A stretch of DNA of 64,000 nt, from positions 11,107 to 75,106 of the forward strand of contig JAFEAR010000043.1 of the NCBI GenBank assembly GCA_018266335.1. Direction: 5' to 3'. Source of the stretch: Bdellovibrionales bacterium (lineage in GTDB: Bacteria; Bdellovibrionota; UBA2428). The translations under genes and the position numbers were made by a program. The notes under the pieces are model-generated. The model saw only the letters and a list, made by a program, of their open reading frames with translations. It searched no databases and had not been told where the DNA came from. Below, piece by piece: positions 696 through 55,663 of the stretch; the stretch's first letter is position 1, and each line of letters starts with the position of its first letter.

Positions 696-1385
696 TTAGA
701 ATCTTGGCACTTGGAAGGTTGGCTTGAGCGCCTGCATGGCACCGCCCAAGGCGTCCGAGGTGCCGAGCAGAAACCGGGTACTCTCTTTTTCCCTTCGATT
801 TTCGATAGCAAGGGACTGGGCCTGAAGCTTAAGTCCCGTCGCCTGAGTTCTTAGGGACTGATTCATTACCGTGAGAAGCACCCCGATTCCCTCAGCCGAA
901 AGTTTTGCCGCACCTCCGGGCGACACACTATGAGAGAAGTCTTTGATGCGATCCCCAATGTCATCGATTTTTCTGGTGTAGTCGTAGACTTGATTATTAA
1001 GCGAAATGGCTTCAGCTACACTTTGATCCGCATCCGTTTGTACGCGTGTATCTGCTGAGCTGGGCACGGATCCATACACCGTGGCAATACCCTGAAGAGC
1101 GCGGTTTACTTTATCCCAATCTTTGTAAATACCGGGGTCGATATTTGGATATACAGTTCGAATGAGTTGAAGGGAGTCATTGATGCCTCGGTTAATTTGC
1201 CGGATGAGATCGAGCTGACTTGAGGCACTATTAAGAAGACTACGAAGCTCAGTTAGCTGTTTAACGGCATTCGCCAAAATTTCGATCAGTACCGCGACGT
1301 CTCCGCCCCAAATATCGGCGTGCGCCGGACCACTTGAAATAAGAATGCCGCTAGCAAAAGTTAGCGCCTGTAAAAAACGTCTCAT
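696..1385 (-). CDS. TrbJ/VirB5-like periplasmic T4SS protein
   Basis: A 229-aa protein with a clear signal peptide (hydrophobic stretch to residue 23, cleavage after SGPAHA) and a long helical body with heptad-like regions. The segment around residues 150-190 (SPGGAAKLSAEG) matches the same segment in the C-terminal domain of the 993-aa fusion protein of the second T4SS at 45984-48965, so the two are homologous. TrbJ/VirB5 proteins are minor pilus components placed next to VirB4 and VirB6. Its ATG overlaps the stop of the upstream virB4 gene by 4 bp, which suggests translational coupling. Confidence 0.72.
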   Translation of the reverse strand: MRRFLQALTFASGILISSGPAHADIWGGDVAVLIEILANAVKQLTELRSLLNSASSQLDLIRQINRGINDSLQLIRTVYPNIDPGIYKDWDKVNRALQGIATVYGSVPSSADTRVQTDADQSVAEAISLNNQVYDYTRKIDDIGDRIKDFSHSVSPGGAAKLSAEGIGVLLTVMNQSLRTQATGLKLQAQSLAIENRREKESTRFLLGTSDALGGAMQALKPTFQVPRF

Positions 1386-3814
1386 TTCTCGCCTCCCTTG
1401 GATTTGCTCGTCTGTGAGCTTGCGGCGACACCGTTTGGAAAGTTTTGGGCGAGCCGTTGAAGCCGCTCGAAAGAACTCTCTCCAGGATATTCTTTTTCTG
1501 CGCGGTCAATTTCGGCGAGATCTTTTGGGTCGGTAGTTGCAATCCAGTACTCAAGCGGTGTGGACTCGATCACTGCGACCGTGTGGTTATCGTTGGCGAC
1601 GAGGAATGCTTCCGAGAAGAATCCCTTTTCTTGGCGCAGGCTTTTAACAAGAGCGACCTCGTTGTCGTTTAGCGAGAGTGTTTCTTGCAGCCGTCCGTAG
1701 TCAATCTGCCCTTGAGTTAGACACCACTTCACGGAGCAGTTGGGAAGAATCGCCGAGGCAATTTTAGATTTCGCGAAATCATCCATGTCTTGCGAGATCG
1801 CAATGGCCGAAGCGCGGTACTTTCGAAATGTGCGAAAAACCTCTTCGATGAACACAAGACCCGAGTCGTTTTTGAGAAGCCGCCAGCATTCATCAAAAAC
1901 AAGAAATTTCATTGTGGCCCGGTCACGAGCAACAACACGCCAAACGAAGTCAGTGATGATGAATAAGCAAACGGTTTGTAGATCTGGGTAAGATTCAAGG
2001 CCCTTCAAATCAAACGCCACGACGGATCTCGTCAGCTCAAGATTTGTTGGCCGGTCAATGAAGCGGCCGTAAGGGGTATCCCCGCACCACGGAGCAAGAA
2101 TTCGCGCGTAGCGGCGAATCTCGGCATCTGGGTGGGCAGCGAGAATGTCTTTTAGCGTACTGAGCCGTGGTTGTGCGGTGTTGTCATAGACGTGAGTAAT
2201 GGCATCTTCAATTTCGGCTCGGTGGAGTTTCGGCAAACGAAGCTCACCCTCCTCCTTGGTCATCAGCTCCACGAGCGTCACAATGAATTTGATTTTTTGA
2301 CTTGAGGGAGCGGTCTCACCGGACGCCAAGTCAAACGGATTAAACGAAAAGCCGCTTTCAACACCGAGTGCGACATACTGCCCATCGAGATTTTCGGAGA
2401 GCTTTTTGTAGGAGCCTCCGATATCCACAAAAAACACCTTTGGGTTGTCTTTTAGCATTTGGAGAAGCAGCAAATTCGTCATGAATGACTTTCCGGCGCC
2501 GCTACCGCCGGAGATGAGCTGGTTCGAGTTCGTCAGATTGCTGTCGAATGGATTGAAACTTAGAAGAGCCCCCTCGCGATTTCGCAGTAAAATGGCAGGC
2601 TCCTTGTGACCACGCCACGGAGCAAAAACGGGAATCAAATCCGAAAGATTCGAAGTTTTCATTCTGCGTTCACGTTCGCGGGACCGAGCGTTCGGAAGCG
2701 AAAGTTCTGAAAAAATGTCAAACGCGGCAAGCGTCTCGACCATGGCTTCGGCGCCGTTTAGATGACGGATCGCGAGAAGCGTTCTTGCCGTGTTTTCATC
2801 TAGGCGGGATTGATCCGTGTCCGATAGAACTACGGTAAGGCTTGTACGGTAGACTTTCTCCGAGCTACCGATCATTTCCTCTAGTAGCGACTCAAGGTCT
2901 TGGAGCTTGGCAATCGAATCGAGATCGCTCACACCAGCTTTTTTGCCCGTAACCATAGAGTGGGCTACGCGCCGACTCCGCTGCAGCTTTTCAATTTCTT
3001 GCGCTTGGTCGGGTACGTGAATAGATAGAAAGCATTTCGAGCCAAACGGCAGAGCATTTAAACTTGCGGCCATTCCCGAAACTGTTTGCTCGGGCGTGGA
3101 TTTAAGCGAGATCACGCGAAAGTGAGTTTCGCCGATTCGAAATCCTTTGGGAGTCACCTCAACGTCGGTCGAAATCAGGTCTGGGGCCACCTCATCAAAG
3201 TCGATTGTGGAAAGCGATACGACTCCGCTAGGGTTCCACATTCGGTAGCTGAGCGAGGCGACCTCGCGCGCGTCAAGGCGCCTGGGCGATAGGCCCAGGC
3301 GCGAGAGCTCGCCATCGATTTGAGTCTGTAGACGCTTTGTTTGCTCGATTTCTAGAGCAAGCTGCGTTTCGCTAAGCCGCACAAACTTTTTGGCCGAGGT
3401 AAAAATGGACTTTTTCGGTGTAGCCGAGCTTGGAGCCTTTCGAACAACTAGGTACATCCGGTGGACGGGCATAGCGCCTGTGCCATCGAGCTCCGACATG
3501 CAGTCTACCCTTGCCTGCGCGAGGTCTTGAACAAGGGAACTAGAGGCGCCACCTGCCCGATTCTTGAACTCGGAAAGCTTTTCGCTATTTCCTGACTCAA
3601 TGCTCTGAACGAACTGAAGATCAAGGTGTGGTGGTAGTCCATTCAGGAAAGAACCAATGCGGGATGTCCAGGTATTGATGGTGTCATCGGCGGACGACGA
3701 AATATCGGCTCCTATGAGTTCAAAGCTAAATCCTATGGATCCATCGCGGAAAATCGCGAAATCTTTTTCGAAACCCCAGAGTTCAATTTTTTCAACAAGC
3801 GCTCCTCTTTTCAT
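1382..3814 (-). CDS. virB4: VirB4/TrbE-family T4SS ATPase
   Basis: An 810-aa cytoplasmic ATPase that energises pilus assembly and substrate transfer. Walker A is GGSGAGKS near residue 435 and Walker B is FLVFDECW near residue 640, followed by conserved helicase-like blocks (SQDMDDF, FRTFRKYR). Length fits the VirB4 family (about 800 aa). It overlaps the virB3 stop upstream and the virB5 start downstream by 4 bp each, so virB3, virB4 and virB5 form a tightly coupled block. The N-terminal region of about 400 residues is the CagE/TrbE-type part. Confidence 0.92.
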   Translation of the reverse strand: MKRGALVEKIELWGFEKDFAIFRDGSIGFSFELIGADISSSADDTINTWTSRIGSFLNGLPPHLDLQFVQSIESGNSEKLSEFKNRAGGASSSLVQDLAQARVDCMSELDGTGAMPVHRMYLVVRKAPSSATPKKSIFTSAKKFVRLSETQLALEIEQTKRLQTQIDGELSRLGLSPRRLDAREVASLSYRMWNPSGVVSLSTIDFDEVAPDLISTDVEVTPKGFRIGETHFRVISLKSTPEQTVSGMAASLNALPFGSKCFLSIHVPDQAQEIEKLQRSRRVAHSMVTGKKAGVSDLDSIAKLQDLESLLEEMIGSSEKVYRTSLTVVLSDTDQSRLDENTARTLLAIRHLNGAEAMVETLAAFDIFSELSLPNARSRERERRMKTSNLSDLIPVFAPWRGHKEPAILLRNREGALLSFNPFDSNLTNSNQLISGGSGAGKSFMTNLLLLQMLKDNPKVFFVDIGGSYKKLSENLDGQYVALGVESGFSFNPFDLASGETAPSSQKIKFIVTLVELMTKEEGELRLPKLHRAEIEDAITHVYDNTAQPRLSTLKDILAAHPDAEIRRYARILAPWCGDTPYGRFIDRPTNLELTRSVVAFDLKGLESYPDLQTVCLFIITDFVWRVVARDRATMKFLVFDECWRLLKNDSGLVFIEEVFRTFRKYRASAIAISQDMDDFAKSKIASAILPNCSVKWCLTQGQIDYGRLQETLSLNDNEVALVKSLRQEKGFFSEAFLVANDNHTVAVIESTPLEYWIATTDPKDLAEIDRAEKEYPGESSFERLQRLAQNFPNGVAASSQTSKSKGGEK

Positions 3815-6609: not shown

Positions 6610-6796
6610 GTGCGAGATCTCGCACAGCCGGGGCCCGAAACAACGGGATTTTGGGAAGTTATTCTTTAAAATTATGGAGTTATAAAACGTGCGAGAGTTC
6701 GCACATCTGAAGCCCGCCAGGAGCCCGCCGAATAGACTATGTGTTTGAAAATGTTGGTATTTTTATAGCTAAAAGGCAGTGTGCGAGGACTCGTAT
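6610..6796. promoter_or_regulatory. Three GTGCGAG-type palindromic operator sites
   Basis: GTGCGAGATCTCGCAC at 6610-6625 is a perfect 16-bp palindrome. GTGCGAGAGTTCGCAC at 6689-6704 is the same site with a changed centre, and a third weaker copy (GTGCGAG then CTCGTAT) lies at 6781-6796. They fill the gene-free stretch 6474-6895 between the T4SS operon and the divergent peptide system, with roughly 80-90 bp spacing. A dimeric repressor controlling the T4SS operon is the simplest reading; no nearby gene is identified as that regulator. I see nothing else in the stretch except the promoter at 6859. Confidence 0.6.
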
Positions 6797-6858: not shown

Positions 6859-6886
6859 TTGACCCACCGCATTATTTCCGTAAAAT
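6859..6886 (+). promoter_or_regulatory. Sigma-70-type promoter of the peptide system
   Basis: TTGACC at 6859-6864 and TAAAAT at 6881-6886 are separated by 16 bp. The predicted start of transcription falls at about 6892-6894, only a few bases before the ATG at 6896, so the precursor mRNA may be leaderless. No other good promoter is visible before the precursor gene. Confidence 0.5.
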
Positions 6887-6895
6887 CCCGAGTCT

Positions 6896-7024
6896 ATGAA
6901 AAAACAAGGCAAGGAAGCTAAACGCATTTCCAAAAAGGTCGAAGTTCTTTCTACCGCCGCTGTTTATAAAGCTCTGCGTGCCCACATCAATCCGAAGTTC
7001 GGCGGGCGCGGGGGTTGCTGTTAA
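6896..7024 (+). CDS. Putative RiPP precursor peptide ending in Cys-Cys
   Basis: A 42-aa peptide: a Lys-rich helical leader (residues 1-34) followed by a short Gly-rich core (FGGRGGCC) and stop. A charged leader, small Gly/Cys core, and position 30 bp before a PqqC-like enzyme gene in the same direction are the usual signs of a ribosomally made, post-translationally modified peptide. The two terminal cysteines are the likely modification sites. There is no strong ribosome binding site, but the transcript may be leaderless. The stop codon is in frame with the next gene. Product chemistry cannot be told from sequence. Confidence 0.6.
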   Translation: MKKQGKEAKRISKKVEVLSTAAVYKALRAHINPKFGGRGGCC

Positions 7025-7054
7025 AGTTTTGAGTCTGACTGTAGACTTATTCGG

Positions 7055-8053
7055 GTGCCTGCTGCGCCCAAACGCCTAAAACATCATGTTTCCCTAGAGT
7101 TAGAGGATGGGTCTACGGCCGTGATTTGCGGCGCCCAGGCGATCAAACTCATGGGCGAGCACGCCAAGTTATTTGCCCTCCACCGGGGCGCGGGAATCGC
7201 AGCCGACATCGCAGCTCCGGCAGCTAATACCGATTCATGGCCCAGCTTCATTGAGCTTTGCGAGGACCTGGATCTTCTGTTCGTTCCCGCTAGACGGGGA
7301 GCGCGGAAGGCAACCGTAAAACCGGGCTTAGTGCTAAATCGAATCGAGAGCGCCCTCGGCATGTGGAAGCCGCTCGTGAGCTTTCATAAATTCTTTTCGT
7401 TCGTTGAAGACCACCCCTGGGCAATGGCCCGGTACCTACTAGAGGTCACTTGCTTTGTATCAAAGGCATCTGAGTATCTAAGCGCTGCTGCTCGGCACGC
7501 GCCAACGCCAAAACTAAAAAAAATTCTCACTAAAATGGAACGGGACGAGCGCGACCACTACAAGATGTTGCTGAAAGATCTTGGACTCTCCGAAAAAGAT
7601 TTCGCAGCTCACGACCCAGCACCGGGCACCCACGCCGTATTCACCCAGCTCTTTCACTTGGCCGTAACGGATCCACGAAGTCTTCTCATCAGCACCGCCC
7701 TTTTCGAAACGGATCCCGAGGAAGGCGATGGGATCCGCCAATTTTACAAATCCGTCACCCAACTTACAAAAATTCCCACGGATCGTTTCGTCGAGCACCA
7801 CATCGAAGATATCGAAGCCGGTCATATCGATCTGTGGAGATCGGCCGTCGACGGGCTCAAGAAAGTTTCATACGAGCAGGCATCCAAATGGATTTCGGAT
7901 CTGCATATGACCAAGCACATGCTCGATCTTTGGCACGATTCGATACAGATCGAATGCAGTTCGCTGGAAAAGCCCGCTATCGCGCCCATCATGAAGAACA
8001 TCATCAGGACACGGCCCGAGCTTGGCTCCGTTCAGGAGCCGCGACTTGAATAA
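7055..8053 (+). CDS. PqqC/haem-oxygenase-like diiron-type enzyme, probable RiPP maturase
   Basis: A 332-aa protein starting at GTG. Residues 1-75 form a small domain (VSLELEDGSTAVICGAQ then a helix) that resembles the PqqD-type peptide-recognition fold. Residues 110-290 are all-helical with the spaced ligand pattern of haem-oxygenase-like oxidases: Glu in LLEVT, ERDERDHY near 163-169 and HHIEDIEAGH near 248-257. Such enzymes (PqqC, CADD, TglE relatives) oxidise small molecules or peptide residues. Placement right after the Cys-Cys peptide suggests that peptide as substrate. Domain calls are by pattern and need a profile search. Confidence 0.6.
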   Translation: MPAAPKRLKHHVSLELEDGSTAVICGAQAIKLMGEHAKLFALHRGAGIAADIAAPAANTDSWPSFIELCEDLDLLFVPARRGARKATVKPGLVLNRIESALGMWKPLVSFHKFFSFVEDHPWAMARYLLEVTCFVSKASEYLSAAARHAPTPKLKKILTKMERDERDHYKMLLKDLGLSEKDFAAHDPAPGTHAVFTQLFHLAVTDPRSLLISTALFETDPEEGDGIRQFYKSVTQLTKIPTDRFVEHHIEDIEAGHIDLWRSAVDGLKKVSYEQASKWISDLHMTKHMLDLWHDSIQIECSSLEKPAIAPIMKNIIRTRPELGSVQEPRLE

Positions 8054-9299
8054 TCGTCTCAAGTCATTTTTTGTCACCCGCTCGCTATCCGGTATTGGCG
8101 ATGAAATGTGGCTCATGGCGCTCCCCATTTGGCTTGCTGCGCACGGATTTTCTACCATGCAGATGGGTGCAATTAGTTCGGCTGCGGCCGCCGGAAATAC
8201 GATTGGCTTTGTGGTGGTTCCAAAGCTCTGTCGCCATTTCAAAACTTCACTCATTTCGGTGGGCGCCGATCTTGTGCAGGTCGTTTTGTTTGCGGCTCTA
8301 GTGGGTCTCTATTTTAGGGGCGGCCTACCAAGTGCATTAGGTTTCTGGATCGTGCTGGGGTTTGTGTTAAGCCTAAGTACTGCCATATGGTTTGCGGCAA
8401 CCGAAACGCTACTTAGCCTCTCGACTTCCGAGGCCGGTGAGGCTCAAGAGCTTCACCGCTACAACTATCTTGCTGCGAATGCGGGTCCGATGGTTGGTCC
8501 GGGCCTTGGCGGAATCTTGTACCAATTCGGCGGACTGGCCTCGGTGGCGCTCGCAAATATCGGCAGCTTCTTCGGCCAAATTCTCTCGCTTGTCTCTCTA
8601 TCAAGCGAAGAAGAGGCTCCCTCGAAACTAGAAAATGAAAAGACCCAGGGGTTTCTGGCCGGAGTGCGCGACATTGCCCGCTCGAAAACTTACATCAGTT
8701 TGACCGTGCTCCCATCCATCGTGAAACTCACGCTGCTGGGTGCGCTTCCCTTTATTCCGTTTGTTCTTGCCCAGAGCCAAAACTCTCCATTTCTTATTGG
8801 ACTTGTCAGCTCGTGCTATATCGTGGGCAGCACAATCGGAGCGTATTTCTACCGGCCAACATCCAAAGCCAAACTTGGCAAGGCATTTACTGTGGACTCC
8901 GTACAAACTCTCCTTGCTGGCGCCCTCATCATACTCACTCTTCACACGGGAAACGCGGTGATTCTAAGTCTTGGGATGTTCTGGGGTGGTTTTTCCTGCG
9001 CTAGATACACCGTTGCGATTCGCTCTCTGCGGCAACTAATTATTCAGCCATCCAAAATGTCCTCCATTGTTTCAGCGCAAGGACTACTTGTTCGTCTTGC
9101 TACGCCCCTCTCGGGAATTATTCTCGGCTACTTTTTAAACGAGCGGGGAGTTTTTATGAATATATCGGCCGTATTTGTGACTCTCACTACAGTCGCAGGC
9201 ACCCTAGCTGCGATCTACCTTTTCAAGTCTTATGATGCGGTCGTGACGAATGGAGTAAACAATGAGGCTAAAGACACTGGCGGCAGGAATCTGCCTTAG
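8046..9299 (+). CDS. MFS transporter, probable exporter of the modified peptide
   Basis: A 417-aa protein with about 12 hydrophobic segments and an MFS_3/enterobactin-exporter-like N-terminus (SLSGIGDEMWLMALPIWL). The start chosen is TTG 8046, which has AGGAG 7 nt upstream and overlaps the preceding stop; TTG 8022 is the alternative. Overlap with both neighbours (8046-8053 and 9262-9299) places it in one operon with the precursor and maturase genes, so export of their product is the likely role. Confidence 0.75.
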   Translation: MNNRLKSFFVTRSLSGIGDEMWLMALPIWLAAHGFSTMQMGAISSAAAAGNTIGFVVVPKLCRHFKTSLISVGADLVQVVLFAALVGLYFRGGLPSALGFWIVLGFVLSLSTAIWFAATETLLSLSTSEAGEAQELHRYNYLAANAGPMVGPGLGGILYQFGGLASVALANIGSFFGQILSLVSLSSEEEAPSKLENEKTQGFLAGVRDIARSKTYISLTVLPSIVKLTLLGALPFIPFVLAQSQNSPFLIGLVSSCYIVGSTIGAYFYRPTSKAKLGKAFTVDSVQTLLAGALIILTLHTGNAVILSLGMFWGGFSCARYTVAIRSLRQLIIQPSKMSSIVSAQGLLVRLATPLSGIILGYFLNERGVFMNISAVFVTLTTVAGTLAAIYLFKSYDAVVTNGVNNEAKDTGGRNLP

Positions 9300-10701
9300 T
9301 ATTTTTTGGAGCGGCAACCTTATGGCAAATCAAGGCAGTCCTCCCGCGTCCATTCGAATCAACGTGGATGCCATGCCGGTGAACTTGGAGCCACCACTTT
9401 TGACCGACACAAATACCGCGTGGCTACTGCACCACCTTGGAGATAGACTCGTCGAGGAACACCGAGTTGGGCATCTTAAGGGTAACTTGGCTGCTCAGTG
9501 GACGATCTCCGACGACAAGCGTACCTATCGTTTCAGGATAAAGACTGGTGAGAAGTTCAGCGACGGTAAAAAATTAGAGGCCCAGGACGTTGTCGATAGC
9601 CTTGCTCGCGCCAAAAAACACGGCGAGCATAGTCGTGTCGGATTTTATCTAAAAAACATCGAGGCCGTATCGCTTAAAGATGGTGACTCGGTTGAGGTTA
9701 TCCTCAAAAAGCCCGCCTCGAACTTTTTGCAAATTCTCTCCGACGCGAGCTTTACGATTTACCGGCCATGCAAAGCAGTCGGAGGCTTCTGCTTTACCGG
9801 CGATTTTGAACTTGTCTCTCTTGGCGAAAAATCCGTCGAAATGCGAGCACGCGAGAGCGGTCAAGCGTTTGTTTTGGAACAAATGTCATTTGATGAAGCG
9901 GCACAGAAGTTTCAGTCTGGATCCCTTGAGGTGCTTCGTAGCTACGGCATGGAAAACCTACCCCTTATTCGAAAGACGGCCAAGCAGCGCGTCGTAATGC
10001 CCGATGAGCGGTCCTTCTTTTTTGCATTTAATACCAAGTCCAAAGTTTTCACTGCACTCAAATCCAGAGAGGCCGTTGTGCACGCCATGAACACAGAGGC
10101 ACTAGGCAAGGCCTTGGAGGAGCGAGGGCTGACTCGTTCCCACTCCCTGCTCTCGCCATCTCTTGTGTTTGGACACAAAGAGTTTCAAAAAGATGTTGAG
10201 TCGCGGTCCAGTGCCGATGCCGTTCCGCCCAAAGGGTTCACCGTGTTAATGATGAAAGCCTACAAGCTAGAGCCCCTTGCTAAGGCAGCCTTGGGCCACC
10301 TGAACCCAGTTTATAGAAATCTTGAAAAAGCCGACTTTCTCTCTGAGATGCGCAAAGGACACTATGATTTGATTCTTATGGGGTACGGACTCACTGTGCG
10401 GGACTGGGACTACCTCTCAACACTGTTTCATTCGGATTCCTTGCATAACTTTATCAAGCTACACGATGCGGAAGTTGACGAATTTCTCGTTAAATCTAGA
10501 GAGGAAATCGAACCATCAAAGAGGATTGGCCTCTATGCCCAGGTACTGGAGAAAAATCGCGCGAACCTTTGGTATATTCCGGTTGCCCACGTACCTCTTC
10601 TTTTTGGCATTTCGGATAAGCTAACGCTGGATCCTCCTCTCGAAGAAACCACCATTACCTCACCATTTTTCTACCTCGGTAAGCTCAGTTGGAAAAAGTA
10701 G
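9262..10701 (+). CDS. Extracellular oligopeptide-binding protein (SBP_bac_5 family)
   Basis: A 479-aa protein with a signal peptide (to about residue 22) and the features of ABC peptide-binding proteins: NLEPPLLTDTNTAWLL, LAAQWTISDDKRTYRFRIK-type block, FSDGKKLEAQDVVDSL, and a C-terminal DWDYLSTLFHSDS block. No ABC permease or ATPase gene follows; instead a sensor kinase gene overlaps its 3' end by 13 bp. This suggests a periplasmic sensing partner rather than uptake: it may bind the exported peptide and present it to the kinase. Confidence 0.8.
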   Translation: MRLKTLAAGICLSIFWSGNLMANQGSPPASIRINVDAMPVNLEPPLLTDTNTAWLLHHLGDRLVEEHRVGHLKGNLAAQWTISDDKRTYRFRIKTGEKFSDGKKLEAQDVVDSLARAKKHGEHSRVGFYLKNIEAVSLKDGDSVEVILKKPASNFLQILSDASFTIYRPCKAVGGFCFTGDFELVSLGEKSVEMRARESGQAFVLEQMSFDEAAQKFQSGSLEVLRSYGMENLPLIRKTAKQRVVMPDERSFFFAFNTKSKVFTALKSREAVVHAMNTEALGKALEERGLTRSHSLLSPSLVFGHKEFQKDVESRSSADAVPPKGFTVLMMKAYKLEPLAKAALGHLNPVYRNLEKADFLSEMRKGHYDLILMGYGLTVRDWDYLSTLFHSDSLHNFIKLHDAEVDEFLVKSREEIEPSKRIGLYAQVLEKNRANLWYIPVAHVPLLFGISDKLTLDPPLEETTITSPFFYLGKLSWKK

Positions 10702-12434
10702 TTCGCATATCAGTCGGCAAGCTCTTCGGGATACTCGCCACGGGCGTTGTCATATTTCTTTTGAGCGCGGGCGCGGCCGTTGTTCTTTCGATTAAAAGTG
10801 ATCTTCAGTCGTCAGCCTCAAGACAACAGGCCCGCATGGCTCTCCTGGCACTTAGCAGCTCGCTCAACAATGACCTGATTTATAGCAATTTTCTTCAGGC
10901 CGCCGACCGCATTCAGCTCCTCCTTGATGGTCAAAATCTATCAAAGTCATTAGGCGTCCGCCTTGTGGATGTCGCGGGCGTAGAAAAGCTAAAATTCGAT
11001 CCATCCGGAGTTTCGAATGAAAAAAAAGCCAGCACGTTGGAAGAAACGATCTACTTCGATGAAGGACGAAAAAATCCTGCCTACCGACTTCAGGTAACCT
11101 ATGTCCCGCAGTCATTCGCGGTTGAGAACCTTGCTAGGCTTTTGATGTTCCCCTCTCTCCTCGTGGTTCTAGCTCTACTTGGATTATTTGGTCTTGGTTA
11201 TTTCACAAGAACACTCTTTCGGAGGGCCACCGAGCTGATCGAAAGCGGGCAGACTCAAATTCATTTCTTTAAATGGGTTCAGGTGAAAGAACTTCAGAGC
11301 CTAAAAGAAACTGTTTTGGAGTTGTCCAGAAAGCGCGGTGAGCTGGTTGAAGCGCGAGTTGCCGAAGGCACCGCAAACCAGCTCTCTCTATTTAGCTCGC
11401 TCATTGTTCACGACATTAAGCAGCCCCTCTCTACGGTACTAAAACTTGTGGATAGTCTCGAAGGCACCGCGCCCGCGCACAAGCTCACGCTGATTCAACA
11501 GTCACTACGCCGAATCCAGTCTACGACAGCGCGAGCTTTTGACAGCGCCGGAGTGATCCAATCGGTAAAGACACCTCGGCAAGACGGGCAAAGCAAGGTT
11601 GCCGCCGAGCAAATAATTGTCTTGGTGGAGTCTTTGCTCACTGAAAAAAGAGAGTTGTACGCGGAGCGGACCACACTTGAAATCGAAGCTGTTCCGCAGT
11701 CCACCGACTACGGATTTTTCGCAAGTATCGACGGCAAAGAATTCTTGGGACTTCTTTCAAATATCGTGGACAATTCGGCCGAGGCTATCGAGGGCGCGGG
11801 CCAGATCTGGGTATCTCTTGGCGAGAGTCCGAACGGCATCGTAGTAAAAATTACCGACACCGGGCGGGGTATCCCGGACCACGTACTCCCAAAGCTCATG
11901 CAGGTGGGAGCGACATACGGGAAGCCTGGGGGCTCGGGCCTTGGCCTCTACCATGCCCGCGTGCAGGTGGAGTCTTGGGGCGGAAAAATACAGATTGAAA
12001 GCAGGCCGGGTCTCACTACGGTTAGCATTCACCTTCCCAGGGCGCCCATTCCCGCATGGATACTGCCCGAGCTGCGTCTGCCCGCCTCAAATCAGGTGGC
12101 TATTCTTGACGACGATCCAGGCATTCACGGTTTATGGAAACTGCGACTTGGAGATACAGTGATTCAGCATTGTTTTAGAACCGGCACCGAATTCACAAAC
12201 TGGGTAAAATCATTAACCTCTGAGCGCAGGAATGAATTTTTGTTTCTGTGCGACTTCGAACTCAAGGGAGAAAAAGCCACGGGACTTGAAATTATCGAGG
12301 CTCTGGGGATCGCAAAGAACAGCGTTCTTGTTACCGGGCGAATCGCTGAGACGAGTGTAACCGAAGGGTGTTTGCGCGTAGGGGTCAAAGCCATTCCAAA
12401 GTCCGCGCTATCCCGTGTTCCGATAGTCAAATAG
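10689..12434 (+). CDS. Hybrid sensor histidine kinase
   Basis: A 581-aa protein: transmembrane helix near 10-32, periplasmic region of about 120 residues, second helix near 150-172, then a kinase core with phospho-acceptor His in IVHDIKQPLS (near 240), N box LSNIVDNSAEAI, G1 DTGRGIP (near 390) and G2 GGSGLGLYHAR (near 413). Residues 470-575 form a receiver-like domain (ILDDDPG, acceptor Asp in CDFEL near 520, PK near the end). Start TTG 10689 overlaps the binding-protein gene. Its convergent neighbour is an NtrC-type activator, the likely output. Confidence 0.88.
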   Translation: MEKVVRISVGKLFGILATGVVIFLLSAGAAVVLSIKSDLQSSASRQQARMALLALSSSLNNDLIYSNFLQAADRIQLLLDGQNLSKSLGVRLVDVAGVEKLKFDPSGVSNEKKASTLEETIYFDEGRKNPAYRLQVTYVPQSFAVENLARLLMFPSLLVVLALLGLFGLGYFTRTLFRRATELIESGQTQIHFFKWVQVKELQSLKETVLELSRKRGELVEARVAEGTANQLSLFSSLIVHDIKQPLSTVLKLVDSLEGTAPAHKLTLIQQSLRRIQSTTARAFDSAGVIQSVKTPRQDGQSKVAAEQIIVLVESLLTEKRELYAERTTLEIEAVPQSTDYGFFASIDGKEFLGLLSNIVDNSAEAIEGAGQIWVSLGESPNGIVVKITDTGRGIPDHVLPKLMQVGATYGKPGGSGLGLYHARVQVESWGGKIQIESRPGLTTVSIHLPRAPIPAWILPELRLPASNQVAILDDDPGIHGLWKLRLGDTVIQHCFRTGTEFTNWVKSLTSERRNEFLFLCDFELKGEKATGLEIIEALGIAKNSVLVTGRIAETSVTEGCLRVGVKAIPKSALSRVPIVK

Positions 12435-12457
12435 CGACGAGTCCAAACGAACTGGCG

Positions 12458-13846
12458 CTATTCTCCTTCGTCTTCAATTTTCTCAGATCCAAATCCAAAA
12501 AGTTTGTGCTGTTTAGTTAAACTGTGGAAGGTGCTTTTGCTAAGACCAAGGCTCGACGCAGCCAAAGTTTTAGTCGGAATTTGAAGGGCCCGAGTTAGAC
12601 GCTCCCTCCGCTCACGATATTGCTTGTCCATAAGCGCATTCCAACTAAGAGTAGCATCATCGACAAAAAATCTATCGCCTAGCTGCTGAGGCTCGACGTA
12701 TTTTCCGGGGCATTTGGCAAGTAGCTCAATGACGGCGTTTCCGAGTTCGCGGATGTTTCCAGGCCATGAGTACCTCATCATTTGGTGAACTGTTTTCATT
12801 CGAAAATTTTTACTTGTCTTGTGCTTGCTGTTGAAAACTTCGGTGAAGTGCTGAATCAAAAGTGGGATGTCTTCGATTCGCTCGCATAGAGGAGGAATCT
12901 CAATGGAGAGCACCTTCATGCGGTAGTAGAGGTCTGGCAGAAATTCACCGCGATCAACAAGCTCCTTAATGTTCGTCTTGGTGGCGACGACCAATCGAAA
13001 ATCGACAGCATATTCAGCAAGCCCACCAAATCTTCGAATTTTCTTCTCTTGGATTGCGCGCAAAAGACCGGCTTGGGTTTTTAGTCCCAGTTGATGAACC
13101 TCATCAAGGAACAGTGTGCCGCTGCGAACCGATTCAAATAATCCAATCTTTGAGGAGTCAGCTCCGGTAAAGGACCCCTTTTCGTGACCGAAAAGTTCCG
13201 AGTCGGCAGTTTCGGCTTTTCCGGCCCAGGCGGCACAGTTTACTGCGACAAACGGCTTGGTGGATGTGCCATGCAGCCCTCTTGCTACGAGTTCTTTGCC
13301 AACCCCCGTTTCGCCGAGAATCATGATGGACTCCGGCATGTCACGATATTTACGAATCATGTGGGCGACCTTTGTCATGGAGTCAGACTTTCCGACCATT
13401 CCTACAGCAGCTAGGGCTTTTTGATTTTCGTCACCATTCTGAGTGCTGGCCTCCAAGAGTCGCGTGGTTTCTTCGAACTTTCGGCACTGTCGCTCGATTA
13501 CGGCAAAAAGCTCATCTTCCATATCTTTTTCGATGAACCCATAGGCCCCGGCCGCCCATGTTGTTTTAAGCGAGTCTCGCGTCTTGTCGCCGGAGTAGAT
13601 GTAGGCCGCAAGCTCGGGGCTGATTTCGAGCATTTCTTTTACGAGTTCAGCGCCGTTTAGGCGGTCTCCCGGCATGGAGTAATCAACAATGGCGACTGCG
13701 TATTTTGTTCCATGGGCACGAGTAAACTTAAGTGCTTCATCGGCGGTTGTCGCCGTATCAACCAAATACCCGCGCTCTTCAAGCAACACGCGGTTTGTAT
13801 CAAGGATAAGTGTGTCGTCATCGACGATCAGGATGCGGTAGCTCAT
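12458..13846 (-). CDS. NtrC-family sigma-54-dependent response regulator
   Basis: A 462-aa protein: receiver domain (DDD at 9-11, acceptor Asp 55 in AIVDYSMPG), AAA+ domain with Walker A GETGVGKE (178-185), the sigma-54 contact loop GSFTGA (224-229, Ser in place of the usual Ala), FLDEVHQL Walker B, and a short C-terminal helix-turn-helix (LAASSLGLSKSTFHSL). It converges on the kinase gene (24 bp apart) and is probably its partner. It is co-oriented with the AAA+ gene upstream. I did not find a clear -24/-12 promoter nearby. Confidence 0.92.
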   Translation of the reverse strand: MSYRILIVDDDTLILDTNRVLLEERGYLVDTATTADEALKFTRAHGTKYAVAIVDYSMPGDRLNGAELVKEMLEISPELAAYIYSGDKTRDSLKTTWAAGAYGFIEKDMEDELFAVIERQCRKFEETTRLLEASTQNGDENQKALAAVGMVGKSDSMTKVAHMIRKYRDMPESIMILGETGVGKELVARGLHGTSTKPFVAVNCAAWAGKAETADSELFGHEKGSFTGADSSKIGLFESVRSGTLFLDEVHQLGLKTQAGLLRAIQEKKIRRFGGLAEYAVDFRLVVATKTNIKELVDRGEFLPDLYYRMKVLSIEIPPLCERIEDIPLLIQHFTEVFNSKHKTSKNFRMKTVHQMMRYSWPGNIRELGNAVIELLAKCPGKYVEPQQLGDRFFVDDATLSWNALMDKQYRERRERLTRALQIPTKTLAASSLGLSKSTFHSLTKQHKLFGFGSEKIEDEGE

Positions 13847-13879
13847 GGTGCTGAAACTCCTTCGCGCGCTTATCCTGCG

Positions 13880-14740
13880 CTATTGAGACTTACTGTAGGT
13901 GCGGGTTAGGCCCATGCCATTTTTCAGACGGAAATACGTTCTACGTGTAAGTCCCGTGCGACGAATAAACTCACGTTCTTGCTGAACGACGGGGAGTTTT
14001 GAATTCAAAAGCTCCTGCAATACTTTCAGCGGCGGCTCGGTCTCGCGCTTTGATGCGGGAAGGAGTCTAAGCAGAAGCTCCTGCCACTCGCCATGGCCGT
14101 GGACCTGGGCCACGTCGTAGCCGACCTTTAGCGTGCGCAGATTTATTTGGTCCGAATTTTCTCTGGTGCGGTGACTGTTGAGAAATGCCGCAACCTGCGC
14201 GGCGAGTTCTGAATCACGGTAATGGTTTTTGTCGCCTGCCGCACTCGTAAGAAGAGCCGACGCTTCTGCGGCTGAAAAATGAAGGCGATACGACATCGCT
14301 CGCGATAGGATTGCAGATCCATCTGGAGTGGCCGGAAATGAGTTACAGATAAAAATGATTTTGCTTTGAAAATCGAATTCGGGGGTTGAGATTGCAGCCC
14401 TCGTGGATCCCCAGACAACACGGCGGGGACCGTCTGTGGTGCCAGTGGCGGCCTTTAAAATTGCCATTGCCGACGGACTTTGAAACAAGTTGGCACTTGT
14501 GTCATCGACGAGCACGATTTGACCGTGAGCATTTTCCGCCAAGAAATTAAATAAATTCAGAGGGGTAGAATAGGACCCAAGAGACTTTGGCTTGTGCCCG
14601 AGTTGTTCGAGTGCTGCTTCAACAGCCAAGCTCTTGCCGAGTCCGGCGGCACCTTTAACCAAAAGTGCATGAATTGATTCACTTTTTAAGAGGGTCTGGA
14701 TGTAGCCTTTGATGTGGCGGACATGATCCATGGTGGGCAT
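13880..14740 (-). CDS. Small AAA+ ATPase with C-terminal DNA-binding-like region
   Basis: A 286-aa protein with Walker A GAAGLGKS (near residue 31), Walker B IVLVDDTS, a sensor-1-like IIFICNS block and a C-terminal helical part (FIRRTGLTRRTYFRLKNGMGLTR) that looks like a helix-turn-helix. It resembles single-module ATPases that load or remodel DNA or protein partners. It lies 33 bp upstream of the NtrC-type gene on the same strand and probably shares its transcript. Start at 14740 or 14731 cannot be settled. Confidence 0.65.
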   Translation of the reverse strand: MPTMDHVRHIKGYIQTLLKSESIHALLVKGAAGLGKSLAVEAALEQLGHKPKSLGSYSTPLNLFNFLAENAHGQIVLVDDTSANLFQSPSAMAILKAATGTTDGPRRVVWGSTRAAISTPEFDFQSKIIFICNSFPATPDGSAILSRAMSYRLHFSAAEASALLTSAAGDKNHYRDSELAAQVAAFLNSHRTRENSDQINLRTLKVGYDVAQVHGHGEWQELLLRLLPASKRETEPPLKVLQELLNSKLPVVQQEREFIRRTGLTRRTYFRLKNGMGLTRTYSKSQ

Positions 14741-14775
14741 TTATGCCTGGTTTTGACGCGCCGAGCAATGTTAAA

Positions 14776-14789
14776 AGTGACATGTCACT
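14776..14789. promoter_or_regulatory. Palindromic operator AGTGACATGTCACT
   Basis: A perfect 14-bp palindrome lying between the divergent AAA+ gene (start 14740) and the secreted beta-propeller gene (start 14932). Its position 36 bp before the AAA+ start codon suits a repressor or activator site controlling the AAA+/NtrC operon. Confidence 0.5.
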
Positions 14790-14931
14790 AATTTCAATGA
14801 TTGCAGGCTTTTCCGTCCGCCCCCGCCGATATTGGGGAGAGGTAAAAGCGCCCCTTCTGCCGCGTTTTTGGCAAACACGCCAAGATAGCCCGGGAACTTC
14901 ACTTCCTTGGGGTTCCTACTATGATGTGGGA

Positions 14932-16641
14932 ATGGCGAAATTTTCAAACACCTTCCGAATTTTCGTTCTCGTTCTCTCGATACCCACAGCTCAGGCTTGG
15001 GGCGCGTCCTGGAGCCAACAAGAAATTATTGGTGCCTATCCACATGCAACGGGCGGTGTAAGCGATTTGCATTTTACGCCAGACCTCACAGTTGGCATGG
15101 CCCGCAGTTTTTCTTGTAAGGAAGCAGCCCGAGGCTGCGACTCGATTCTGCAATTTCTTCCGCAACAGGAAGTCTCGGAGTCTTGGGACGAAGCACTCAA
15201 CGCTCCGTCAATGTTAGATCTCTCTCGCGATGGAATGGTTAAAGCTTACTATCGCAACGAGTGCAAAGGCGATGAACTTTGTAGGACCGACGATAACGCA
15301 CGACCTATCTTGAGTGTGATGGTTTCCCGGAGGCTTAAAACGGCGTCTATCCCGCTTCCTACTCCCTACCAGTTCTTCAGAGGTGAAGAGCTTAAAATCT
15401 CTCCGGATGGGAAATATGTCGCCTTAAAATTAGTCGTTACAAACGACAACGAAAGTACCGTTGGGGGAATTAGGTATCGCGCTATCACCCACATCTATCG
15501 TGTCGGGCAGCAATTGGAATATTTGAGCCGGATCGAGTCCAACACCGTTCGGACGAATTTCCTGTCGCCCCAGGTGGCCCTACTGTTCTCGGGTGATAGC
15601 CGCTATCTCGCTTTGAGTGGCCATGAATACCAACCTCAAATTGTTGATCTTAGCACCGTGACTCTCCGCAATCTTGGCCTCACGAATGATTCTATCGTCC
15701 GCGAGCTCAGCTCGTCCTATGCGCTTGCCGAACTCAACGGGCCTCATGGCGAACATGCTGGCATCGCCGTTTTCGATCCATCAACGGGACAAAAGCTCTG
15801 GAATCGTGACCAGCTTTACAGTTTCTCTTACCTTTCAAAGAGTCTGCGGACGCATGAAGACTATCTGCTCGTGCTTAAAAGAGACCGACCACGTTCCCAG
15901 CCGAAATATCAACTCGTGAACCCACGTAGCGGTCAGCCGCTCTTCAACTCAGACACCTGTACGAACTCCCTTCACATGAATCTAGTAGAAGGAAAATCAC
16001 TGCCTTCTGTTGTGGGCGTTTCTTGCGAGTCATCGTTTCAATGGGTTGATTCCCAAACGGGCCGCGTTCTGTATTCGCAAAATGTCGAATCTGGGATGCA
16101 AGTTGTCTCGGAGGAAGTCTCTAACGATAAGCGCATCGGCACGATTCTCGTAGGAAGTGATGTCAACTCCGACGGAGCCATCTATCAAAGATTTTTTGTG
16201 GATATCAGCCACGGACGCATCTTGCGTAGCGAAAGCGCTAAGACGTCTGCCATTTTCTTACCTCAATCGAACGGCTTGAGATTCGCCCAAGAATATTGCC
16301 GCTTTGAGAATCATCATGTCTCAGACTGCAAGCTAGAAATTGTCGATTCGATGAGCGGAACTATTCTTGGCGTTCAGGCGTTTGACCCGCTTCAAAATGT
16401 TGAAGGGAATCGCTGGGGCTTTGTTGGCGAGGATGTTTTCATAAAATTTCCAGAGGAATTTAAAGTTTTGGATGGTCAAACGGGCCAAGTTTCATTGGCC
16501 GAGAGAACACCTCTCCACTATTCGATTCAACCCGCCGAGATCGGTAACCGCTTTCTTGTGATGGCGCCCGCGAATCTTCAGCCTTCCTCGTCAGGCTATC
16601 TAATGCATTCCGGCTTAAAAGCTAACCTCTTTGAGCGCTGA
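14932..16641 (+). CDS. Secreted beta-propeller-like protein of unknown function
   Basis: A 569-aa protein from the ATG at 14932, chosen because it begins a proper signal peptide (KFSNTFRIFVLVLS then AQA). The body contains repeated blade-like units (LHFTPDLTVGMARS, LKISPDGKYVALKL, LLFSGDSRYLALSG, AVFDPSTGQKLW, WVDSQTGRVLY, VLDGQTGQVSL), as in WD40/quinoprotein-like propellers. Several cysteines suggest periplasmic disulphides. It is divergent from the AAA+/NtrC operon. No specific function can be given. Confidence 0.6.
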   Translation: MAKFSNTFRIFVLVLSIPTAQAWGASWSQQEIIGAYPHATGGVSDLHFTPDLTVGMARSFSCKEAARGCDSILQFLPQQEVSESWDEALNAPSMLDLSRDGMVKAYYRNECKGDELCRTDDNARPILSVMVSRRLKTASIPLPTPYQFFRGEELKISPDGKYVALKLVVTNDNESTVGGIRYRAITHIYRVGQQLEYLSRIESNTVRTNFLSPQVALLFSGDSRYLALSGHEYQPQIVDLSTVTLRNLGLTNDSIVRELSSSYALAELNGPHGEHAGIAVFDPSTGQKLWNRDQLYSFSYLSKSLRTHEDYLLVLKRDRPRSQPKYQLVNPRSGQPLFNSDTCTNSLHMNLVEGKSLPSVVGVSCESSFQWVDSQTGRVLYSQNVESGMQVVSEEVSNDKRIGTILVGSDVNSDGAIYQRFFVDISHGRILRSESAKTSAIFLPQSNGLRFAQEYCRFENHHVSDCKLEIVDSMSGTILGVQAFDPLQNVEGNRWGFVGEDVFIKFPEEFKVLDGQTGQVSLAERTPLHYSIQPAEIGNRFLVMAPANLQPSSSGYLMHSGLKANLFER

Positions 16642-22242: not shown

Positions 22243-23010
22243 TCAATGTGAAAATCTTCGGGCATCGGTTCCGATCAATCTGGCGTTGTTCAAATAAATC
22301 ACCACAAAAAACACCGCTAGTGCGACGTTGGTGTACACGTTGCCGAGGTTCAACCCGATAGGTTTGCTAACGTAGTTGCCGATCGTGGCCCCGATCGGAT
22401 GCATAAGAACCAGGGCCGACCAGTAAGCCATAGCGCCACTCAATCGACGATATCTAAAGGCAGAGTAACAGATCGCAAGTAGGACCAGCAAAAAGACGCT
22501 GCCCCCAAAAGCCCCCAAAGGTGTGTCGTTCGTGATGAAGTCTCCGCTCGTTGTTCCGAAGGTACTACTCAGCAGAATTGCGAGCCAGTAGAAGACACTG
22601 CTGAGCAGACTTTCCTCCCCTCGTTTCCTTGAAATGAGGTAGCGGACGACCAGCACCAGCAGCAGCGAACCGAGCACCGCCAGCGATCCCAGTTGCGTAC
22701 CCAACTGGAGCGGCTTGAGTAGACCCCACTTTTTGTCGTTGTCCAAAGGTTCCAAGGTCACCCAATCCGCGAGGTTGGTGCCGCCAATATTACCCATGAG
22801 AATCAAAAGCCAATAGAAAATGTCGTTCTTCAATTTGAAAAATAGGATCCCGAAAATCATGGCGCCAAAAACACAAATGTCCAGAATCGCCCCTTGCGTG
22901 TAACCAAGCTCGAAATTACGGGAAAGCAGATTTCCGATCAGCTCGCCCATGGTGGTGCAAATCAACATGAGGGCCCAGTAACTGGCGTTGAGTTTCGGCA
23001 GATTCTTCAT
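22243..23010 (-). CDS. COG4705-type membrane protein (copy A)
   Basis: A 255-aa protein with about eight membrane helices arranged as internal repeats (YWALMLICTTMGELIGN, FYWLLILMGNIGGTNLADW, FYWLAILLSSTFGTTSGDF, YWSALVLMHPIGATIGNY). This four-fold pattern is typical of the uncharacterised COG4705 membrane-anchored family. The start is ATG 23010. A diverged paralogue follows on the other strand at 23123. The intergenic stretch 21957-22242 downstream shows nothing recognisable. Confidence 0.75.
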   Translation of the reverse strand: MKNLPKLNASYWALMLICTTMGELIGNLLSRNFELGYTQGAILDICVFGAMIFGILFFKLKNDIFYWLLILMGNIGGTNLADWVTLEPLDNDKKWGLLKPLQLGTQLGSLAVLGSLLLVLVVRYLISRKRGEESLLSSVFYWLAILLSSTFGTTSGDFITNDTPLGAFGGSVFLLVLLAICYSAFRYRRLSGAMAYWSALVLMHPIGATIGNYVSKPIGLNLGNVYTNVALAVFFVVIYLNNARLIGTDARRFSH

Positions 23011-23122
23011 AGAGAAACAGACTACAGTATCCGAAGACAACAGCAAGGGCATAAGAACAGCGCTCCCCTTTCCGAGCCTCTACCAAGTTGGCAAAACGGG
23101 CCCAATAGGCAAGACTCGTTGA

Positions 23123-23899
23123 ATGCAAAAACAAGCTATTGGCTCTACGCCTCAGTTCATCAACAAATTGCCACAAATCACGGCGGCCTTTTGGATTATG
23201 AAAATAACGGCAACGACGCTGGGCGAAACGGGCGGTGACTGGCTGTCGATGACCATGAATTTAGGTTACCTCGTTAGCACTCTGATCTTTTTCTCTCTCT
23301 TCGCAGGCGCTCTTGCAGCACAGCTCCTCTCGAAGAAGCATCACCCTTACCTCTATTGGACGGTTATCATCGCCACAAGTACGGCCGGCACCACATTGTC
23401 GGACTACATGGATCGAACACTGGAGCTTGGCTACACAAAAGGTGCCGCGATCTTAGTGACGATTCTTCTTAGCTTGCTTGCAGCGTGGCGTTTTAGCGTG
23501 GGCAACTTGTCCGTCGACAACATTCGTACTCGCAAGGCAGAGTTGTTTTACTGGTTCACGATTCTTTTCTCGAACACATTGGGTACGGCGCTGGGTGACT
23601 TCCTGTCCGATGATTCCGGACTTGGCTTCTTTGGTAGCTGGCTTTTGATAACCGGTATTTTAGGCGTGATTCTGGCTGGCACTTTCTTTACGCGCATTTC
23701 GCGGGTTCTGCTGTTTTGGATCGCCTTCATTTTAACCCGTCCGTTCGGTGCCACTTTTGGTGACGTTTTAACTAAATCGCACGAGCAAGGCGGGCTCAAT
23801 TTCGGACGGGGCTATTCGTCGCTCATTCTCTTAGCCATTCTGGTAGTCACCATCCGTATTTCGTATAAGGAAAAGTCTGCAGTTAGCATCGAGGTCTAG
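23123..23899 (+). CDS. COG4705-type membrane protein (copy B)
   Basis: A 258-aa paralogue of the divergent 255-aa protein, with the same four-fold motif (FWIMKITATTLGETGGDWL, LYWTVIIATSTAGTTLSDY, FYWFTILFSNTLGTALGDF, FWIAFILTRPFGATFGDV). Acidic residues (E, D) recur at the same place in each repeat, which suggests cation handling, but that is inference. It is followed 22 bp later by an EamA-like gene on the same strand. Confidence 0.78.
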   Translation: MQKQAIGSTPQFINKLPQITAAFWIMKITATTLGETGGDWLSMTMNLGYLVSTLIFFSLFAGALAAQLLSKKHHPYLYWTVIIATSTAGTTLSDYMDRTLELGYTKGAAILVTILLSLLAAWRFSVGNLSVDNIRTRKAELFYWFTILFSNTLGTALGDFLSDDSGLGFFGSWLLITGILGVILAGTFFTRISRVLLFWIAFILTRPFGATFGDVLTKSHEQGGLNFGRGYSSLILLAILVVTIRISYKEKSAVSIEV

Positions 23900-49985: not shown

Positions 49986-50372
49986 ATGGGGATCTTTTTT
50001 CCAAAAAATCGAAAAACGCGGGCACTCCTGCTGCTCGTCGCGTATCTGCCGAAGGCCATTGCCGGCCCCACGCGTGAATGCGACATCCGGGTTCGGGGCA
50101 AGTCCGTCGAACGCTTAGCTGTTCCGCTTGGTGCGGCATCAACGCTTCAGCTCTCCGAGGACTTCGACTTCGCGATTCCAGGAAATTCTCGCGACTTCAA
50201 GACAGTCACGACGCCGAACCCCAGGTACGCAGTTGTGCAGGCCAATGCCACAACGGCCAAAGAAACATCGCTGACGCTCGTGATGAAGTCGGGCGCGCAG
50301 GTGTCCCTTTGGCTCGTTCCAACTTCCAAGGATCGCGGTTGCATCCTTGCTCGCATTCGGAGGGGTCTATGA
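49986..50372 (+). CDS. VirB9/TraK-like short periplasmic T4SS protein
   Basis: A 128-aa protein with a signal peptide (ALLLLVAYLPKAIAG) and a beta-rich body (TLQLSEDFDFAIPGNSRDFKTVT, ALTLVMKSGAQVSLWLVP-like strands) resembling the N-terminal domain of VirB9/TraK core proteins. It is half the usual VirB9 length; the C-terminal VirB7-binding domain is absent. Its stop overlaps the VirB10-like start by 4 bp. AGGAG lies about 10 nt before the ATG. Confidence 0.5.
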   Translation: MGIFFPKNRKTRALLLLVAYLPKAIAGPTRECDIRVRGKSVERLAVPLGAASTLQLSEDFDFAIPGNSRDFKTVTTPNPRYAVVQANATTAKETSLTLVMKSGAQVSLWLVPTSKDRGCILARIRRGL

Positions 50373-53958: not shown

Positions 53959-54387
53959 ATGAGAACTTTCAAAAAAGTTGTGAATGGTGGTTATCATGAA
54001 TCAGAGGAAGAACCCTCCCTTACCCCCTCTCTTCCTCTGAAACTCCATCTCTCCCCTGGAACGAAGAACGAGTGCGATGCGCCGAGTGTTGCCGTCCGTG
54101 AGCCTGTGGAGGCGAATTCAGATCTATTGACGCCAAACGAGCTCGCGGACGCTCTTAAGGTCTCCGTTAACACTGTGTACTATTGGATTTCGCGGAGCGA
54201 GGTTCCCTACATAAAGGTTGGACGGCACCTTCGTTTCGTCCTAAAAAATGTACTGGCGTATTTCGAGGCACAGACCTCAGTTGAACGACAAGAGCCTAAG
54301 CGTGCTCGTTCTCTCTCGGCTTTGAAATCGCTTGGTTCTTTGAAAAGCAGGGGTGGTGGACGTGCTCAATCTCCAGAAATGGAGTGA
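53959..54387 (+). CDS. Excisionase-like MerR/HTH_17 protein
   Basis: A 142-aa protein. A disordered N-terminus is followed by an HTH_17 excisionase-type domain (LLTPNELADALKVSVNTVYYWISRSEVPYIKVGRHLRFVLKNVLAYFE, residues 56-103) and a basic tail. It sits directly before the integrase gene, with GGAG of the integrase binding site inside its last codons. Likely a directionality factor for excision or a repressor of the integrase region. ATG 53959 is chosen as the first one after the inverted repeats. Confidence 0.78.
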   Translation: MRTFKKVVNGGYHESEEEPSLTPSLPLKLHLSPGTKNECDAPSVAVREPVEANSDLLTPNELADALKVSVNTVYYWISRSEVPYIKVGRHLRFVLKNVLAYFEAQTSVERQEPKRARSLSALKSLGSLKSRGGGRAQSPEME

Positions 54388-54392
54388 TAAGC

Positions 54393-55573: not shown

Positions 55574-55663
55574 TGGCGGAGAGAGTGGGATTCGAACCCA
55601 CGGTACCTGTTACAGTACGCACGCTTTCCAAGCGTGTGCCTTAAACCACTCGGCCATCTCTCC
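55574..55663 (-). tRNA. tRNA-Ser(GGA), right attachment site
   Basis: A complete 90-nt serine tRNA with encoded CCA: acceptor GGAGAGA, D arm, anticodon loop TTGGAAA (anticodon GGA) on the CACGC/GCGTG stem, long variable arm and T arm GTGGGTTCGAATCCCAC. Bases 55602-55633 form the right copy of the 32-bp attachment repeat. The 3' half was therefore supplied by the element, and the displaced original 3' end lies at 27548-27607. Confidence 0.95.

Follow-up and report, generated by a model that had tools for sequence, protein, structure and literature searches.

What is made, and to what end, by a locus in which a gene for a 42-residue peptide ending in two cysteines stands before genes for an oxidase-like enzyme, a transporter, a binding protein and a histidine kinase? 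The locus lies at positions 6896-14740 of a 64,000-nucleotide stretch of contig JAFEAR010000043.1 from a Bdellovibrionales bacterium (hereafter the window). The segment 6896-10701 is probably a biosynthesis and export operon for a ribosomally synthesised and post-translationally modified peptide (RiPP) of an undescribed class, joined to a possible sensing loop. In the best-supported part of this proposal, the basic, beta-strand-prone front part of the peptide would bind an N-terminal domain of the enzyme that resembles a RiPP recognition element (RRE), the haem-oxygenase-like and presumably di-iron core would oxidise the C-terminal cysteine (Cys-Gly in the family, Cys-Cys in the window), and a protein of the major facilitator superfamily (MFS) would export the modified peptide. 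A periplasmic binding protein may then rebind this product, free or in complex with a metal. Together, the binding protein, the kinase and a convergently encoded sigma-54 activator may tune how strongly the operon is expressed, by way of dyads that lie ahead of the peptide gene.

Peptide genes beside related enzymes

A direct protein search with the window enzyme (P0002) finds only itself and one protein, P0010, that is 64% identical. The bridge to a wide family is a 21% identical protein on plasmid p42f of Rhizobium etli, found by tblastn of plasmids; an annotated 67-residue open reading frame (ORF) ending Met-Cys-Gly lies 29 bp ahead of its gene. The R. etli CFN 42 peptide-enzyme pair has the accessions WP_166486952 / WP_011428413. 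A profile built from three sequences recovers 43 proteins that include the window enzyme, the others being 327-366 residues long, and a pattern-based scan of a genome collection (84,980 species genomes) confirms 32 loci. The distant relatives are 17-26% identical to the window enzyme. The family is rare and patchy across at least seven phyla (Actinomycetota, Bacillota, Bacteroidota, Pseudomonadota, Chloroflexota, Cyanobacteriota and Acidobacteriota): full-length matches occur in 1 of 396 sampled genomes from the phylum of the L025 genome, 1 of 82 from the family of L029, 2 of 392 from the genus of L005, 4 of 65 from the genus of L007 and 1 of 299 from the family of L017, where the counts include the query genome and the larger samples had few candidates scored per genome. 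Patterns drawn from the P0002/P0010 alignment find no match in the genome collection or in viral contigs, and the wide alignment finds no family member in viral contigs; phage records likewise gave no match.

In 28 of the 31 loci with a full-length enzyme (L001 and 30 genome loci; L030 and L032, in which the enzyme is cut, were excluded), the 700 bp upstream of the enzyme gene hold a small ORF that ends Cys-Gly. For this count ORFs of 15-130 residues on either strand were considered. Such ends are found in 29 of 380 small ORFs of the upstream zone versus 15 of the 7,168 in the remainder of these loci (Fisher p 9e-28). Three members found later, close kin of counted loci, all have a Cys-Gly peptide (L101, the same locus as L011, was left uncounted). 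Five weaker hits, which match the oxidase core only, show no such peptide over 1.5 kb upstream, a distance taken from the match rather than from a known gene start. The 29 distinct peptides, 20-110 residues long (23 in a Streptomyces case), are near-constant only at the last two positions (Cys in 28, Gly in 28). They come from 30 that were picked by hand, including one variant ending Cys-Ala and one ending Ser-Gly, with some start codons set by hand; the starts of the L033 enzyme and of a 110-residue ORF in L023 are uncertain, and gene calls in the high-GC loci are longest-ORF guesses. The peptide genes of L025 and L027 lie 513 and 444 bp upstream. In two Burkholderia loci (L007 and L011) the peptide gene is on the strand opposite to the enzyme, and the pairing is therefore not merely an effect of operon order.

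A preliminary description of this DNA had held that a peptide system would be refuted if no conserved precursor stood upstream of related enzymes. In the relatives, on the contrary, a gene for a short candidate precursor is conserved next to that of the presumed maturase, and a small Cys-ended peptide is a trait of the family. Within the window, 1,140 ORFs have 15-130 codons, and these end Cys-Cys in 2 cases and Cys-Gly in 3, with a penultimate cysteine in 45. One of the two that end Cys-Cys is the 42-residue ORF (6896..7024, + strand; end FGGRGGCC), placed where the relatives carry a Cys-Gly peptide. Because its place, size and terminal cysteine fit, it is taken as the candidate precursor and substrate of the window enzyme, by analogy with the Cys-Gly peptides. 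The early claim of a precursor with its modifying enzyme is thus supported at the level of the family, and for the Cys-Cys peptide of the window itself it is inferred.

Three side observations concern members of the family. In Amycolatopsis (L021, 1240-1320) the peptide ends Thr-Ser-Gly beside an enzyme with intact ligand positions, a natural Cys-to-Ser variant. Tandem second copies of the enzyme occur at 11030-12046 of L025 and 10959-12050 of L027, with five of the seven ligand-like residues of the alignment lost (V/T, R, L, M, Q); these are possible non-catalytic partner subunits, judging by their residues. An unannotated segment of a Rhizobium sp. T1473 plasmid (L034, 4001-4126) codes for the C-terminal 42 residues of an enzyme like that of R. 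etli, at 95% identity, and, lying about 1 kb from a recombinase gene, is an apparent remnant.

Core and front domain of the enzyme

The enzyme gene (7055..8053, + strand) codes for a predicted RRE-like domain (about 7076-7312) fused to a predicted haem-oxygenase-like dimetal-oxidase (HDO) core (about 7319-7987). Pfam gives sub-threshold matches to Haem_oxygenas_2 and TENA (TENA/THI-4/PQQC) alone, at 0.005. The core is modelled as a haem-oxygenase-like helical bundle, and the haem-oxygenase-like proteins CADD, PqqC and 3dde are among the best fold and profile matches, which cover the core only. All 15 residues that are invariant in the family are kept in the window enzyme, whose putative ligands include E165, H168, H248 and D252. 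Of the six positions of the HDO motif E-H-E-H-(D/E)-H, five align with CADD, the sixth, a His, is displaced, and an extra Glu is invariant in the family.

The front domain is RRE-like by its predicted elements and its context. Strands at residues 12-15, 21-25 and 28-32 are followed by helices at 34-46, 59-71 and 81-85 in the predicted structure of the window enzyme, and the R. etli enzyme has the identical predicted order; the RRE definition used for this comparison is that of PMC12710340. Pfam gives no PqqD match in the enzyme, nor is one listed among the 43 family members. A profile of the family's front domain scores 77% against PqqD (E 2e-5), but a MarR control scores higher, at 96%, and because of this the assignment is based on element order and context. 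The front domain of the window pair, from two sequences, scores 5% against PqqD, 0.7% against MarR and 1.5% against the family's own front domain. The PqqD-like front domain of the preliminary description is RRE-like in its predicted order of elements, with an ambiguous likeness to PqqD itself. SznF is absent from the 50 matches listed in each of the two fold comparisons, which say little about the front domain.

Several known systems come close to this enzyme. VarO of the thiovarsolin pathway is haem-oxygenase-like too, and the RiPP cluster that encodes it also holds an MFS gene, but PMC6511847 describes it as proposed to install a double bond in an Arg within a YcaO-TfuA cluster. The enzyme described here carries an RRE-like domain of its own, the candidate precursors end Cys-Gly or Cys-Cys, and neither YcaO nor TfuA is present. 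FlcE and FlcD of the fluopsin C pathway share the fold, as modelled, a broadly similar ligand motif and what would be a cysteine-derived substrate, but that substrate is described as S-succinyl-cysteine rather than a ribosomal peptide and FlcD as mononuclear (PMC11363339). The likeness to CADD, PqqC and 3dde is limited to the core, and PqqC is described as lacking a metal cofactor (PMC11363339). Two other identities were considered and set aside. Pfam gives no MNIO (DUF692) match for any of the eight scanned genes, and none is listed for the 43 family members. Neither YcaO nor TfuA, the marks of a thioamide RiPP, is among the Pfam matches of the operon genes.

Genes and control region of the window operon

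All reading frames of the preliminary description are present between 6896 and 14740, and the genes and overlaps it reported are confirmed by frames, coordinates and family matches. The peptide and enzyme genes are 30 bp apart. The enzyme gene overlaps by 32 bp that of the MFS transporter (8022..9299, + strand; MFS_1, 2e-10), for which TTG at 8046, preceded by CAGGAG, is the likelier start. An overlap of 38 bp leads to a family-5 extracytoplasmic solute-binding protein of the OppA/NikA type (9262..10701, + strand; SBP_bac_5, 3e-33) with an N-terminus that by eye resembles a signal peptide, and one of 13 bp to a membrane histidine kinase (10689..12434, + strand; HATPase_c, 4e-18). Because the genes overlap, the peptide, transporter, binding protein and kinase may be carried on one transcript. 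Two genes on the opposite strand converge on this operon. The first (12458..13846, - strand) codes for an NtrC-type response regulator with a receiver (Response_reg, 1e-16) and a sigma-54 activator domain (Sigma54_activat, 1e-53), which has a loop of the GAFTGA type (GSFTGA, at residue 224). Its last 60 or so residues give no Pfam match, to a Fis-type DNA-binding domain or otherwise, at E up to 1. The adjoining gene (13880..14740, - strand; P0007) codes for a small ATPase-like protein, the AAA+ ATPase of the preliminary description, with weak AAA matches and a match to a PHROG of unknown function (3e-15). The C-terminus of the kinase is receiver-like by its residues (DDD 474, D 522, K 571) and not by Pfam. 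The top NCBIfam matches of kinase and regulator are PrsK (1e-16) and PrsR (1e-83) of PEP-CTERM systems, but both fall far under the curated cut-offs (60.7 of 300 and 281.6 of 502.6). A 632-residue ORF (14743-16641) begins 2 bp past the ATPase gene and has no match in Pfam, NCBIfam or PHROGs.

In 13 of 33 loci the enzyme gene is followed by an MFS gene, at a distance of 130 bp or less in 11 of these. The count was made by tblastn with six MFS seeds at E 1e-4, includes a partial match of 147 residues in L013, and was verified in L005, L026 and L028 when Pfam was run on 20 chosen neighbours. The MFS protein of the window occupies the same place in the gene order as those of the relatives and is not close kin of the S. 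natalensis MFS protein. The exporter of the preliminary description is thus supported by a recurrent association, and export itself is presumed.

Upstream of the peptide gene lies a perfect 16-bp palindrome, GTGCGAGATCTCGCAC (6610..6625), and 79 bp from it a close copy, GTGCGAGAGTTCGCAC (6689..6704; arms GTGCGA/TCGCAC), which are candidate sites 1 and 2 for binding of an activator; a degenerate third copy with 3 mismatches is found at 6781..6796. Beyond these dyads there is no site in the 64 kb with fewer than 3 mismatches. At up to 3 mismatches the pattern, which was composed after the sequence had been read, has 16 matches in the window versus 7.9 expected, a number reached by 1 of 100 shuffles. 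The dyads stand where enhancer sites for a sigma-54 activator could be placed. A weak candidate -24/-12 element, TTGGTATTTTTATAGCT, lies at 6754..6770 (+ strand; 9 of 13 positions of the standard consensus). A sigma-54 pattern that had been fitted to this site was dropped, as the site is unremarkable under the standard consensus, and it is kept as a candidate only. An alternative promoter of sigma-70-like hexamers (6859..6886, + strand; 10 of 12) is as good a candidate, such sites numbering 8 in 8.4 kb versus 5.9 expected. Rfam finds no match between 4000 and 17000. The dyads lend some support to control by the convergent regulator, which the preliminary description had included in its circuit.

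A conjugative element integrated at tRNA-Ser, with its right end near 55.6 kb, probably carries the operon. The signs of it are a tyrosine integrase gene (54384-55514) whose end adjoins tRNA-Ser (55574-55663) and genes that are TraC-like (1382-3814), TrbI-like (50078-51304) and TraD-like (51301-52752). Identity between the TraC-like protein and the TraC proteins listed from plasmids is 24-26%. Among the relatives, the L003 gene is followed at 1 to 3 kb by genes for a relaxase and for a coupling protein of conjugation, and the R. etli member is on p42f. Elsewhere in the window, several long ORFs between 29455 and 39804 have a common start (...PQVIRVDGSVFDS.GAPVTA...) and are paralogous, perhaps surface- or fibre-like, and two divergent membrane proteins (22243-23899) are alike by eye, the second with four DUF347 repeats.

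Several observations weigh against the reading of this locus as a RiPP operon with a sensing loop. The branch that carries the window enzyme and P0010 is very long, at 6.8 changes per site, the front domain of the window enzyme has no profile match even to that of the family, and the sixth HDO ligand is out of register throughout the family, with a His at +5 from the Asp instead of +3 (an offset of two residues). The window peptide ends Cys-Cys instead of Cys-Gly, and a search for homologues found none. The Cys-Cys subfamily offers a single readable locus. Neither the peptide gene nor the enzyme gene has, by eye, a Shine-Dalgarno-like sequence ahead of it. The sigma-54 element is equalled or bettered by 72 of the 655 GG-N10-GC sites in the window, itself included. 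Across the 33 other loci nothing matches the binding protein or the ATPase-like protein, and the regulator has a match in a single locus, 8.4 kb from the enzyme, and is not shared nearby. The pairing itself has three exceptions, namely a peptide ending Ala-Cys-Ala (L016), the one ending Thr-Ser-Gly in L021, and Saccharothrix sp. NRRL B-16314 (L019), the only locus with no candidate peptide at all, since no ORF ending Cys-Gly or Cys-Cys is present within 1.5 kb on either side. Among the 31 enzymes, ligand-like positions are broken in that of L019 alone, where Gln, Arg, Arg and Arg replace E173, H176, H261 and H270. A joint loss of this kind, in a single case, is what would be expected if peptide and catalysis served one purpose.

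Role of the peptide product

In its fullest form, the RiPP proposal is of an undescribed class in which a fused RRE-like/HDO protein would oxidise the C-terminal cysteine of ribosomal peptides, some no longer than 20 residues, to a metal-binding or reactive sulfur group, coupled in the window to a sense-and-respond module on a conjugative element; we hold the case for and against this fuller version to be evenly balanced. No description of such a peptide-enzyme class was found in the open-licence literature, most subscription papers lying outside the search.

One possibility, to be held tentatively, is that the product is a metallophore which works like methanobactin. The oxidised cysteine would be a ligand for a metal such as copper, the MFS protein would export the peptide, the OppA/NikA-type protein would recover or sense the complex, and the kinase and regulator would read metal status. 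Methanobactin is described as combining a cysteine-oxidising iron enzyme and its partner (MbnBC) with a putative exporter gene, mbnM, and the OppA-related MbnE, which binds Cu-methanobactin. In the related HvfBC system an RRE is part of the partner protein, and the Cys that is modified in the small precursor HvfA lies in the CG of EGKCG repeats (PMC13419390, PMC7558416). The HDOs FlcE and FlcD are also reported to build the copper ligand of fluopsin C from cysteine (PMC11363339). The window differs from the MNIO systems in that its oxidase is from another family, with a single presumed C-terminal site and a fused RRE-like domain, and the product would be methanobactin-like in action without being a methanobactin. 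The NCBIfam matches of the binding protein include NikA (6e-15) and CntA (2e-9), both far under their cut-offs, but its matches among solved structures include peptide binders as well as nickel binders. No TonB receptor is found among the 28 window ORFs scanned with Pfam, and no signature of a metal regulator was seen.

About equally good as an account of the window, though again less likely than not, is a signalling or quorum role, in which the exported peptide would be bound by the solute-binding protein, read by the kinase and fed to the sigma-54 activator and the operon. In keeping with this, the overlapping genes suggest a single transcript with the regulator convergent to it, the dyads lie upstream of the peptide gene, and the operon is on a probable conjugative element, where such control makes sense. 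The preliminary description noted a binding protein with no ABC permease, and none is found among the same 28 ORFs. On the other side are the missing binding-protein and ATPase matches and the lone regulator match already described, and the kinase is matched in 2 of 33 loci, at 2.5 to 10 kb from the enzyme gene. Sensing is thus no general feature of this class of peptides. Since the binding protein and the ATPase-like protein are unmatched and the kinase and regulator are matched only at a distance, the sensing genes look like an addition of the window lineage to a shared unit of biosynthesis and, often, a transporter. The quorum circuit first proposed for this locus is not supported by the relatives, and signalling is best kept as a hypothesis specific to the window, as the binding protein and the regulator are not found near other enzymes.

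It is improbable that the peptide is only a carrier from which a cysteine-derived metabolite is clipped, with partners such as an aminotransferase or an ornithine-cyclodeaminase-like protein. A scaffold could well be very short and near-constant only in its final two residues, as these peptides are, several characterised HDOs are described as acting on amino acids (PMC13108848, PMC13185094), and a class-V aminotransferase gene is directly downstream of the enzyme gene in 5 loci and ornithine-cyclodeaminase-like genes are near it in 6 (tblastn, with Pfam run on examples), but the operon in the window is without these tailoring genes. More doubtful still is a spurious 42-residue ORF beside an orphan oxidase that acts on a free amino acid or other substrate and an ordinary solute sensor: codon usage is indecisive (18th percentile of real segments, as much being reached by 11% of 266 spurious ORFs), the peptide lacks a homologue and the enzyme with its front domain is divergent, but position, size, penultimate cysteine and all 15 invariant residues fit the family.

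If the RiPP proposal is correct, an oxidase superfamily with few known roles in RiPP pathways (VarO being the one met in the open-licence papers) becomes the core maturase of a RiPP class. The natural precursors would be very small, down to 20 residues, with a fixed and simple target in the terminal cysteine. Such a system would be easy to reconstitute, to search for in genomes as an ORF ending Cys-Gly together with a fused enzyme, and to test for cysteine chemistry and metal binding. The window would then be a further case, where the producer of such a peptide may itself sense it.

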